64,000 bases of DNA from an uncultured Lactobacillus sp. GTDB taxonomy: Bacteria > Bacillota > Bacilli > Lactobacillales > Lactobacillaceae. The notes under the pieces are model-generated. The model saw only the letters and a program-made list of their open reading frames with translations, was not told the DNA's origin and searched no databases. The DNA lies in the NCBI RefSeq assembly GCF_947367125.1, contig NZ_CANBCQ010000001.1, positions 1-64,000 of the forward strand. Reading direction: 5' to 3'. Shown one piece after another: positions 53,114 through 59,013 of this stretch (its first letter is position 1; the number at the start of each line of letters is the position of its first letter). The position numbers and the translations under genes are program-made.

Positions 53114-53270
53114 AATTTATGCTCTTTTCTAGTAATACTGGTATTTACTTCAATTATACTTTAATTAATTTTGGAAAAATAAAAACTTTTTTGAAAAATA
53201 CTCTTGCATTTTGAAATATCTTTACCTATAATAGTTTATGTTCTGTTGAGGACATACAAACATACAAGAT

Positions 53271-53344
53271 GGTCTGGTAGCTCAGCTGGATAGAGCAACA
53301 GTCTTCTAAACTGTGGGTCGTGGGTTCGAATCTCACCCGGATCA
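53271..53344 (+). tRNA. tRNA-Arg (anticodon TCT)
   Basis: ggtctgg/ccggatc acceptor pairing; loop acagt-cttctaa-actgt; T-arm gtgggttcgaatctcac. Confidence 0.95.
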
Positions 53345-53350
53345 TAATTA

Positions 53351-53392
53351 TAGGGTTTTACGATGATTTAAAAGTCGTAAAACCCTATTTTT
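53351..53392. terminator. Rho-independent terminator downstream of tRNA
   Basis: tagggttttacga tgatttaaaag tcgtaaaacccta ttttt. Confidence 0.85.
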
Positions 53393-53458: not shown

Positions 53459-54574
53459 TTACAGCTTAGATAAGGATTGAATAATTTTATCATTTTGTTT
53501 ATTTTTATATTCTTCAAGTAAGTAAGCGTATGTTTTTAAAGTGATGCTAATATCTGAGTGTCCTAATCTTTTAGAAATTGCATAAATATCAATACCTTGT
53601 GAAATAAGATAAGCAACATGACTATGTCTTAAGCTATGGAAATGAAAAGTAGGTTTATCAATTTCGTCTTTTTTAAGTAAGCTTCTTAACGTATGATTTA
53701 CACCATTGCTAGAAGGTGGATATTTTGTCGTAGGAGAAGCAAAAACAAAATCAGTATGATTATGTTCAAGCTGTTTCAAAACCTGTAAGAGCTTTGAATT
53801 TACAGGAATAATCCTATTAGAAGATTCTGTTTTAGGCTTATTCATTTCGCGTCTATTTTGGTTCCATGATTTTGTAATCGAAATCGTATGGTTTTCAAAA
53901 TCTATATCATTCCAGTGCAGGGCAGATAATTCACCTAATCTTGCACCGGTGTAAATAGCGGCTAAAATTAAATATTTACTAGTATATTTAGTATTTAAAC
54001 TCTCAATACAGGATTGAGTTAATAATTCAATTTCATTTAGATTTAAGTAATCCACATGTCTATCTTTAGTAGGATCACCGGATAATGCCACACGGCTAGC
54101 AAAACTTCGATTAAGCAAGCCATCATCTATAGCATATTGAACGCAAGCTTTAATTGAAATATTTATTTTTCTAACTGTAATAATAGCGTGGTCTTTGCCA
54201 AAATCATTGATAAATTTTTGATATTGCTCACGAGTAATATCTTTGATTTTAGTATTACCAAAAAATTGCTTGATAAATTTATGATTAATTTTGTAACGCT
54301 TTTTGGTTGATGAACGAACGGAAGGAAACTTATAAGTTTCATACCACTTCTGATAGTAATCAGCGAATATAGAATTTTTAATCACATCTACACCTGATAT
54401 AGAAGCAGCTTCCATTTTTATTCCGTATTGTTGGGCTTCAGCCTTAGTTTTAAATCCACCTTTGGATTTTTGCTTTAAAACAGAAACCATTTCCTGTTTT
54501 TCAGGATCCCATTCTTGAACTCTTTTTGAAAATCTAACATACCAAGTTTTACCGCGTTTTTTAATTGAAGCCAT
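53459..54574 (-). CDS. int: Tyrosine-family phage integrase
   Basis: TGARLGELSALHWNDIDFE; HSLRHSHVAYLISQGIDIYAISKRLGHSDISITLKTYAYL. Confidence 0.97.
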   Translation of the reverse strand: MASIKKRGKTWYVRFSKRVQEWDPEKQEMVSVLKQKSKGGFKTKAEAQQYGIKMEAASISGVDVIKNSIFADYYQKWYETYKFPSVRSSTKKRYKINHKFIKQFFGNTKIKDITREQYQKFINDFGKDHAIITVRKINISIKACVQYAIDDGLLNRSFASRVALSGDPTKDRHVDYLNLNEIELLTQSCIESLNTKYTSKYLILAAIYTGARLGELSALHWNDIDFENHTISITKSWNQNRREMNKPKTESSNRIIPVNSKLLQVLKQLEHNHTDFVFASPTTKYPPSSNGVNHTLRSLLKKDEIDKPTFHFHSLRHSHVAYLISQGIDIYAISKRLGHSDISITLKTYAYLLEEYKNKQNDKIIQSLSKL

Positions 54575-54621
54575 AAAAATACTCCTATTCTAGCCAAAAC
54601 TCTGCTAAAATAGGGTATAGC

Positions 54622-54727
54622 AAAGCCTTGGCGGGTTTTGTTTAATTCAAATACATTTATTTTTAAAAGCTATTGGCGTAGCTTTTTACCGATCCCATCA
54701 CTGTTGGCGCAGTGGTGGGATTTTTTT
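54622..54727. repeat. Three tandem hairpins with identical TTGGCG loop (CGCCAA on - strand)
   Basis: aaagcc-TTGGCG-ggtttt (54622-54639); aaaagcta-TTGGCG-tagctttt (54665-54686); atcccatcactg-TTGGCG-cagtggtgggat-tttttt (54692-54727). Confidence 0.9.
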
Positions 54728-54730
54728 ATT

Positions 54731-55363
54731 CTATTTAAGATCTGTTTGGGTCTTATCGGTTAATTTGTTGTTGGTGAAGGTTAATACTGCATTAGCACCA
54801 GTATCACCTTTAACACCGGTTAACCATGTGGCTGAAACTGTCTTTTTACCCATGATTAAAGATTCATCTAAGCCATCAGGTTCACCATATTTCTTGATGA
54901 CTGATTCATATGTTGAACCATCTGCAATAGAATCAAAGGATTTTTTGTCTAACTTGGCAGGTCTACCAGTCCATTTGAAACCGGTAATCATCTTAGAAAT
55001 GGCACGTTTATTAACGTATGCTACTGTAATAGTTACTTTACCTTTAGTCCAAGAAGTACCTGAAGTTTTAATTCCTTCAGTTTTAGAAGATGTGGTTGAA
55101 TTAGGACTACCTAATAAAGCTTTAACTTGCTTTTCAGTATCTCCACCTTTACCGTTACTCATTAAATCTCCAACCTTGATTTGGTCGAATTTACTTCTAA
55201 GCTCTTTATTCTGAGAAATAATTTTATCTACAGAACTAGATTTCTTCTTAGAAGTTTGAGTGGATTTAGCAGAACTACTTTCATTATTAGAACTGCTACA
55301 TGCACTTAGACTTAAACCAGCTGCTATAACTACACTGATTAGCGCCGCTTTCTTTAGTTTCAT
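54731..55363 (-). CDS. Phage-encoded lipoprotein (DUF3862/SmpA-like repeats)
   Basis: Lipobox LSACSSS; two modules FDQIKVGDLMSNGKGGDTEKQVKALLGSPN / FDSIADGSTYESVIKKYGEPDG. Confidence 0.85.
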   Translation of the reverse strand: MKLKKAALISVVIAAGLSLSACSSSNNESSSAKSTQTSKKKSSSVDKIISQNKELRSKFDQIKVGDLMSNGKGGDTEKQVKALLGSPNSTTSSKTEGIKTSGTSWTKGKVTITVAYVNKRAISKMITGFKWTGRPAKLDKKSFDSIADGSTYESVIKKYGEPDGLDESLIMGKKTVSATWLTGVKGDTGANAVLTFTNNKLTDKTQTDLK

Positions 55364-55413
55364 AATTAGCCTCCATAAAAACAAAATGACGTTGACAACA
55401 GCTTTTAAAGTCT

Positions 55414-55743
55414 TCAGTTATTGGACTTTATATCACGATTCATTAGAAAACGGATAGCATCGATGTACTTTTGTGGTACTGGATAACCACAATACACAAA
55501 ATTTAAATCATCTTCTAAATGAATTGATTCTTGTACGTGAGGTACAGGATCATCAGTAATACCGCTTAAGTAGTCCGTAGAAGTATGCAAAACTTTAGCC
55601 ACCGCACTTAGTGCCATAATACCTGGCTTTCTATTTTTCCAGTTGTAAATACTTCTTTTACCTAATTCTGCTTTGTCGTTTACTTCTAGTAGCGACATTT
55701 TTCTTTTTCTAGCTAATTCTTTTGTTCGCTCAAATTCGATCAT
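55414..55743 (-). CDS. XRE-family HTH protein (second repressor-like copy)
   Basis: MIEFERTKELARKRKMSLLEVNDKAELGKRSIYNWKNRKPGIMALSAVAKVLHTSTDYLSGITDDP. Confidence 0.9.
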   Translation of the reverse strand: MIEFERTKELARKRKMSLLEVNDKAELGKRSIYNWKNRKPGIMALSAVAKVLHTSTDYLSGITDDPVPHVQESIHLEDDLNFVYCGYPVPQKYIDAIRFLMNRDIKSNN

Positions 55744-56193: not shown

Positions 56194-56541
56194 TTATGCA
56201 TCCCTCTTAGGTAAGTTATGTTTTTCAGCGTACTGCTTAGCAATCGCACGGTACATGTCATTAACATCTTCAGGAATTACGCCTTTATAAGGTAACCCTA
56301 AATCTTCGAATGTAGTAGGCGCATTGCTTTTAGTTGGTGGGGTAGGATCATCTGTAAGACCATTTAAATAGTCGGTGGTGGTGCCTAAAATTTTAGCTAC
56401 GGCTGTTAAAGCTTCGGTACCTGGTTTATTAGTTTTCCATTTATAAATAGAATTTTTACCTAATTTGGCTTTGTCATTCACTTCACGCAATGACATTTTC
56501 TTTTGTTTTGCTAAATTTTTAGTTCTCTCAAATTCAATCAT
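56194..56541 (-). CDS. XRE-family phage repressor (cI-like)
   Basis: MIEFERTKNLAKQKKMSLREVNDKAKLGKNSIYKWKTNKPGTEALTAVAKILGTTTDYLNGLTDDP; adjacent ImmA; divergent cro. Confidence 0.9.
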   Translation of the reverse strand: MIEFERTKNLAKQKKMSLREVNDKAKLGKNSIYKWKTNKPGTEALTAVAKILGTTTDYLNGLTDDPTPPTKSNAPTTFEDLGLPYKGVIPEDVNDMYRAIAKQYAEKHNLPKRDA

Positions 56542-58155: not shown

Positions 58156-58179
58156 GTGCTAATGCACTCAGTCTCAAAT

Positions 58180-58347
58180 TTAAAGTTTGACGTTTATAGT
58201 TGAATGACAATTTGGACAAATATTTTTACCAATTTTAACTTTGATATCTTTACCACAGTTATCACATTTGTAATCAAAATCGGTTGTTTCTAATTGCCCT
58301 AGAATGTCAGCCATAACGTCTTTATGGAGATCAACTATATTAATCAC
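58180..58347 (-). CDS. Small zinc-ribbon protein on opposite strand
   Basis: VINIVDLHKDVMADILGQLETTDFDYKCDNCGKDIKVKIGKNICPNCHSTINVKL (two CxxC); start codon uncertain. Confidence 0.65.
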   Translation of the reverse strand: MINIVDLHKDVMADILGQLETTDFDYKCDNCGKDIKVKIGKNICPNCHSTINVKL

Positions 58348-58396: not shown

Positions 58397-58501
58397 ATGA
58401 AGCTAAGTAAAGAAACACAAGAAAAGTTGTGGGCAATCACGCCAATGGTTACCACAATTTATGACTTAATTAAAAAGAGATCTAACCGCGCTAACGATTA
58501 G
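58397..58501 (+). CDS. Very small phage protein
   Basis: MKLSKETQEKLWAITPMVTTIYDLIKKRSNRAND*. Confidence 0.5.
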   Translation: MKLSKETQEKLWAITPMVTTIYDLIKKRSNRAND

Positions 58502-58521
58502 ACCATAGTAAGGTAAATATC

Positions 58522-59013
58522 ATGAATGTATTTGAACTAAATTCCGCCGTGGCAAAAATCAAGGAAAAAGCAGAATCAGGTGAAATTGAACCTGAAACTT
58601 TAGCCGACACATTAGAGTCTCTTGAAGATGCTAGAAATGAAAAGCTTGATTCTGTAGCCAATTGGATTAATGAAGATGAATCTAAAATTGATTGGTTAGA
58701 TAAAAAGATTAAGCAATTGACTAAGCTAAAAAAACATTATCAAACACAGAGTGCCAATTTAAGCAAGTTCTTAAAAATTGCTATTGAAAGTAGTGGTCAT
58801 GAATCTATCCAAACCAATAAGTTTAATTTTAAATTGGGGCGGCTATCTTATCGAACGGTTGTACCAGATGTGAATAAAATTCCGATCGATTATGTTACAT
58901 ATCCAGATCCTAAACCACAAGCCAACAAAAAGAAAATCAAAGAAGACCTTCAAAAAGGTAAAGATGTACCAGGTGCATATCTTGAAAGATCTAGAAAGGT
59001 AGTTATTGAATAA
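58522..59013 (+). CDS. Siphovirus Gp157-family protein
   Basis: Coiled-coil body then KLGRLSYRTVVPDVNKIPIDYV..PQANKKKIKEDLQKGKDVPGAYLERSRKVVI. Confidence 0.85.
   Translation: MNVFELNSAVAKIKEKAESGEIEPETLADTLESLEDARNEKLDSVANWINEDESKIDWLDKKIKQLTKLKKHYQTQSANLSKFLKIAIESSGHESIQTNKFNFKLGRLSYRTVVPDVNKIPIDYVTYPDPKPQANKKKIKEDLQKGKDVPGAYLERSRKVVIE

Follow-up and report, generated by a model that had tools for sequence, protein, structure and literature searches.

The stretch of DNA analysed here (the window; 64,000 nucleotides from an uncultured Lactobacillus sp.) carries at its end a prophage that lies next to a tRNA-Arg gene (53270-53345). Directly 3' of the tRNA and before the integrase gene (int), a hairpin followed by a run of T forms a strong terminator-like structure (53350-53390). 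Upstream of int, on the same strand, is a gene encoding a DUF3862/BLIP-like lipoprotein (54731-55384, minus strand), and the 156-bp interval between the two genes contains three hairpins (H1, H2, and H3). Inspection of the sequence of this region identified no clear promoter of int. Farther upstream are two similar regulators of the Cro/CI type (55414-55743 and 56194-56541, minus strand), each starting with MIEFERTK, with a gene for an IrrE-like peptidase between them. The features of the interval and its surroundings are the following:

53459-54574, minus strand: int, tyrosine integrase and proposed target (Pfam Phage_integrase, 5e-30)
54582-54586, minus strand: Shine-Dalgarno sequence of int, AGGAG (from sequence)
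54584-54614, minus strand: stem B of the int leader, 5' arm CCUAUUUUAGC (54614-54604), 3' arm GCUAGAAUAGG (54594-54584) (from pairing and wobbles)
54593-54632, minus strand: stem A of the int leader, 5' arm GCCAAGGCUUUGC (54632-54620), 3' arm GCAGAGUUUUGGC (54605-54593) (from folding and comparison)
54603-54611, plus strand: extended -10 element of the antisense RNA, TGCTAAAAT, with a predicted start at about 54618 (TGnTAnAAT in relatives)
54618-54727, plus strand: predicted antisense small RNA of 110 nt (from the z-score of its fold and the co-occurrence of promoter and terminator in other phages)
54619-54642, plus strand: H1, 5' hairpin of the predicted antisense RNA, loop TTGGCG at 54628-54633, loop not conserved
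54665-54686, plus strand: H2, loop TTGGCG at 54673-54678 (from covariation)
54692-54727, plus strand: H3, intrinsic terminator, loop TTGGCG at 54704-54709, T-tract at 54721-54727 (from covariation and wobbles)

All three hairpins with the loop TTGGCG occur exactly where the original prediction had placed them. Their stem lengths were also given correctly, with eight perfect pairs in H2 (54665-54672/54679-54686), 12 pairs including one G.T in H3 (54692-54703/54710-54721), and six inner pairs including one G.T in H1, whose entire stem comprises nine pairs including two G.T (54619-54627/54634-54642). The statement that each hairpin is followed by T residues applies to H3 alone, which has a true T-tract and is directed along the plus strand, against the flanking genes; the sequence after H1 is TAATTC, and that after H2 is TACC. 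No further hairpin with a TTGGCG loop and a stem of at least five pairs is present in the 64 kb. Shuffling, which had been suggested as a control, did not reproduce the repeated loops: identical hexaloops on hairpins of at least eight pairs and no more than 120 nt apart are represented by three pairs and one triplet in the window and are absent from 60 dinucleotide shuffles of it. The 110-nt RNA of the plus strand folds with -39.5 kcal/mol (z = -5.8). The hairpins are real, far above chance expectation, and conserved.

The region is present in phages P185, S193, and S16 of L. helveticus and in prophage Lj928 of L. johnsonii, in 11 of the 75 genomes of the genus (including the present one), and also in phage contigs of IMG/VR. 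Across 17 sequences, 95% of the cells of H2 and H3 are paired, with two-sided changes in 14 of 19 pairs, a value that none of 500 shuffles equalled; one pair of H2 in G058 suits the minus but not the plus strand. H2 and H3 of this clade almost always carry the loop TTGGCG, with exceptions in S193 and S16 (TTTGCG), L203 (TTGGCA), L349 (TTGACG), G013 (TTGGTG), L216 (TTCCAG), and the second copy in L036 (TTAGCG). The view that selection acts on structure and loop instead of on the sequence of the stems, and the expectation that relatives retain the hairpins, are thus borne out for H2 and H3 but not for the loop of H1. The Lj928 group retains H1 only as a 5' hairpin with a different loop, and the inner pairs of H1 are gone in P185, S193, and S16; a further hairpin with the TTGGCG loop separates H1 from H2 in L037, L048, and L054. 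Across these relatives, the conserved core is two predicted hairpins (H2 and H3), not three.

All strong matches with both hairpins are antisense and located just upstream of an int gene, and the adjacent integrases share as little as about 24% identity with the integrase encoded here. By this comparison, conservation is greater for the predicted RNA element than for the integrase protein. Among the 398 genomes of the order that were searched, the H2-H3 element yielded only weak, terminator-like matches (G185) outside the genus, and the search for plasmid relatives gave no match. A second, partly degenerate H2-H3 copy lies in L036 (7296-7382, minus strand), about 2 kb from the copy at int and without an adjoining int start.

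The strand on which these hairpins act is indicated by their wobble pairs. Cells with G.U wobbles in H3 number 17 when read on the plus strand and 0 when read on the minus strand, which argues that H3 works in an RNA of the plus strand. The predicted RNA (54618-54727) lies opposite the int leader and overlaps it, and it ends in a terminator of its own (H3, followed by seven T). Its promoter is recognized by sequence and comparison only: the extended -10 element TGnTAnAAT is kept in 19 of 19 close relatives. For a test of this motif beyond the clade, 160 integrase loci were collected and reduced to 120 non-redundant leaders (pairwise identity below 75%), in which the motif was sought within 60 nt of the start codon. 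It occurs in the antisense direction in 31 of the 120 leaders (1.4 expected from shuffles, maximum 4) and only once on the sense strand of the same leaders, although these counts are not exact probabilities, because the leaders are not phylogenetically independent and the start codons were placed from tblastn. The motif is followed by an antisense terminator in 17 of the 31 leaders, compared with 5 of the 89 leaders that lack the motif; none of the 31 leaders has a terminator in the sense direction, and the shuffles gave none. Promoter and terminator thus occur in these phages as a unit, a predicted small antisense gene. Examples from outside the H2-H3 clade would encode RNAs of roughly 60-150 nt with other hairpins.

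The hairpins are therefore best read as parts of a single, unannotated small-RNA gene on the plus strand, putatively antisense to the int leader, and similar antisense RNA genes seem to be present in many related phages. No annotation of such a gene was found in the records examined, including those of phiadh and Lj928. Among the options originally listed, a small RNA with three identical loops is the best supported, except that the conserved core comprises two hairpins and the loop of H1 is variable. Beyond that first reading, the locus looks like a cis-antisense unit with its own extended -10 element, combined with an int leader that has two states.

The two states are represented by stems A and B. 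Because their arms interleave and have bases in common, only one of the two stems can form at a time, and B covers part of the AGGAG sequence. Stem B is paired in 189 of 198 cells (18 sequences), whereas the highest value among 1000 shuffles is 187; its wobble cells (20 in the sense and 2 in the antisense direction) point to an RNA of the opposite strand, and the length of its spacer differs among relatives. Together with the wobbles of H3 on the plus strand, this suggests that both DNA strands carry selected RNA structures, and the locus clearly exemplifies how the two strands of one DNA segment can each maintain a conserved RNA fold. Stem A is retained with altered sequence in Lj928 (AAAUAUGAACUCUGC/GCAGAGUUCAUAUUU) and in L048 (GCCGUGG/CCACGGC), and combining A arms from different groups mostly results in poorer pairing. 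It is weaker in L037, L043, and L049 and absent from G013.

The fold of the leader fragment has a z-score of -4.3, and the minimum-energy folds switch between A and B from relative to relative, with the free leader already favouring B in several of them. When the part covered by the antisense RNA is blocked in folding, the mean predicted accessibility of the Shine-Dalgarno sequence declines from 0.38 to 0.14 across 19 leaders and from 0.57 to 0.27 in the present leader; the same treatment has little effect in L109, L115, and L037. In the wider group, pairing of the Shine-Dalgarno arm is modestly above that of shuffles (mean z of -1.1 in leaders with the promoter and -0.2 in those without), a difference that argues only weakly for a universal stem B, which was not adopted.

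The predicted start at about 54618 falls between the 5' arm of B and the 5' arm of A, so that the antisense RNA would be complementary to the 5' arm of A and to nothing of B. Together with the lower accessibility of the Shine-Dalgarno sequence upon blocking, this leads to the proposal that the antisense RNA represses int by allowing stem B to form. RNA polymerase would start at the extended -10 element on the plus strand within the int leader and terminate about 110 nt further on, at H3. The transcript would fold into H1-H3, and the upstream portion of the int mRNA leader would be complementary to it throughout. In that leader, the 5' arm of A would be made first, and A would leave the Shine-Dalgarno sequence free, whereas the incompatible stem B would cover part of it. 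Pairing would probably begin with kissing between the UUGGCG loops and the CGCCAA loops of the mRNA hairpins; the pairing would then remove A, B would form, and translation of int would fall, with cleavage of the duplex possibly contributing. The antisense RNA would thus probably turn integrase production down via changed folding of the int messenger, and its likely purpose would be to keep integrase low. Taken as a whole, the reading that this temperate Lactobacillus phage limits integrase with a cis-antisense RNA that frees stem B is a probable one. Comparison supports the RNA gene with its promoter and terminator and the strand-specific structures; transcription, start site, kissing, and the direction and size of the effect are what we infer. 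If the proposal holds, Lactobacillus phages control their integrase by an antisense RNA that targets a leader with two states, a level of control missing from the usual picture of repressor, antirepressor, and excisionase. The predicted gene can be tested directly in laboratory lysogens.

An antisense RNA could also work mainly by duplex formation and cleavage by RNase III, or by transcription interference, with the switch between A and B being secondary. Such a mode of action would be in agreement with the full complementarity over about 110 nt, the incomplete distribution of A, and the modest generality of B, but it would not account for the maintenance of B with sense-strand wobbles or for the position of the antisense start, which has the arm of B on one side and that of A on the other, and we consider it unlikely.

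Antisense control through a choice between leader structures has precedents outside phages. For RNAIII of the streptococcal plasmid pIP501, antisense binding is described as selecting between structures of the target leader, with roles for a U-turn loop and for pairing of two loops at the same time (PMC4981023 and titles cited there). The leader choice proposed here resembles that of RNAIII and its relatives, but the outcome in pIP501 is premature transcription termination, whereas here the Shine-Dalgarno sequence of a phage integrase gene would be hidden. As in leaders of the pIP501/pT181 type, folding and comparison predict mutually exclusive structures and an antisense RNA that covers the 5' arm of one of them (except in G013); by contrast, no transcription terminator was found on the sense strand of the int leader. 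RNAII of plasmid pMV158 is likewise a small cis-antisense RNA that ends in an intrinsic terminator, and it blocks translation of the downstream gene (PMC4485353); unlike the RNA proposed here, it has a single hairpin and binds from a single-stranded 5' tail, without U-turn loops.

The nearest described RNA is sar of Salmonella phage P22 (RF00262), which is also a phage cis-antisense RNA with two hairpins, the second of which is the terminator. It is antisense to the antirepressor gene ant (PMC2629481), whereas the RNA described here lies opposite int in all strong matches and differs from sar in sequence and loop. The full-length match to the sar model (28.8 bits, E = 2.7e-4) is below the gathering score of 43. 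No Rfam family reached its gathering score in this region; sub-threshold matches were to sar, RsaJ, and Ref84. The predicted RNA therefore appears to work along sar-like lines without being a member of the sar family, and we know of no leader switch like A/B for ant. Control of a phage integrase at the RNA level is also exerted by sib of phage lambda, a cis-acting element downstream of int that works through RNase III; the antisense RNA proposed here would instead act on the upstream leader of int. The open-licence literature searched contained neither a description of an antisense RNA at the integrase of a Lactobacillus phage nor a paper that combines UUGGCG with antisense RNA.

Repetition of the same loop is not required for pairing in cis. 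Loops are doubled also where their sequence differs: phiadh has two antisense hairpins at int that both carry TTACCAG (L103:1230-1420), H2 and H3 of the antisense RNA in G049 both carry CTGCAA while the H2 stem GAGCTA is retained (L006:1380-1530), and TGCCAG occurs twice in each of L208 and L209. It is a puzzle why an RNA should carry several copies of one loop and why, in certain other phages, all copies have been exchanged together. The antisense RNA of the int leader in L216, in which two hairpins have TTGGCG and the terminator has TTCCAG, is a likely recombinant; identical loops within every RNA were considered as a strict rule and rejected, because L216, L207, S193, L203, and L349 break it. 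Within UUGGCG, UUGG fits the YUNR U-turn, the motif reported to serve recognition in antisense systems that pair loop to loop (PMC4485353). Not every phage loop has it: CTGCAA, TTGCAG, and TTGCCG, all from other phages, contain YUNR on neither strand.

In related phages (L039:4901, L043, L045, L060, L117, and L118), a TTGGCG loop also tops a further antisense terminator, which faces the start of a Gp157/Gam-like gene and is accompanied by a perfect extended -10 element (TGTTATAAT) that overlaps the start codon. This suggests a second, putative antisense RNA with the same loop, and the repetition of the loop suggests a partner in trans or cross-talk. One speculative and rather doubtful extension is that the loop would serve as a phage-specific address of several antisense RNAs (those at int and at the Gp157/Gam-like gene), read in trans or by cross-kissing and changing in concert between phages, as the sets TTGGCG, TGCCAG, CTGCAA, and TTACCAG might indicate; integration and early DNA metabolism would then be switched together.

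It is quite improbable that the loops are instead read by a phage or host protein, either as UUGGCG in the plus-strand RNA or as CGCCAA in the int mRNA. The N protein of phage lambda reads boxB loops in this manner, and a protein would explain why the loop recurs on unrelated stems, why it varies by phage yet stays doubled (phiadh, G049, L208, and L209), and why L037, L048, and L054 have extra TTGGCG hairpins, but it is at odds with loops that may differ within one RNA (L216 and L207).

We regard it as very unlikely that H3 merely terminates stray antisense transcription into the lysogeny operon, with TTGGCG as a favoured terminator loop of these phages and no regulatory RNA. The loop on the antisense terminator opposite the Gp157 gene would agree with such a role, but H2, which is no terminator, is nevertheless conserved and covarying, and the terminator is accompanied by a nearby antisense extended -10 element. 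Shielding of int from tRNA readthrough is unlikely because a strong terminator (53350-53390) already follows tRNA-Arg, and the proposed terminator array finds no support, since H3 is the only hairpin with a T-tract. A generic terminator loop of the host was also considered and rejected, with TTGGCG in 0 of 129 terminators sampled from three related chromosomes. A DNA element (arm sites of Int/Xis, a repressor operator, or the recombination arm sites and single-stranded hairpins of the original prediction) is scarcely tenable, because, despite a location between int and the repressor operon and the dyad that stem B forms around the -10 element, the site and the attachment end of int are more than 1 kb apart, the strand-specific wobbles (17:0 and 20:2) mean pairing in RNA, and the spacer of B varies in length among relatives.

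Elsewhere in the window, the host part contains an ordinary PyrR binding site (Rfam RF00515; 27556-27661, plus strand). The copy of the second antisense terminator (58484-58510, minus strand) lies opposite the leader of the Gp157/Gam-like gene at 58522-59013, with the loop TTAGCG and without a good -10 element. A zinc-ribbon protein of 44 amino acids is encoded on the minus strand (58180-58314) within the early region of the plus strand, and its gene has a terminator-like hairpin of its own near 58165.
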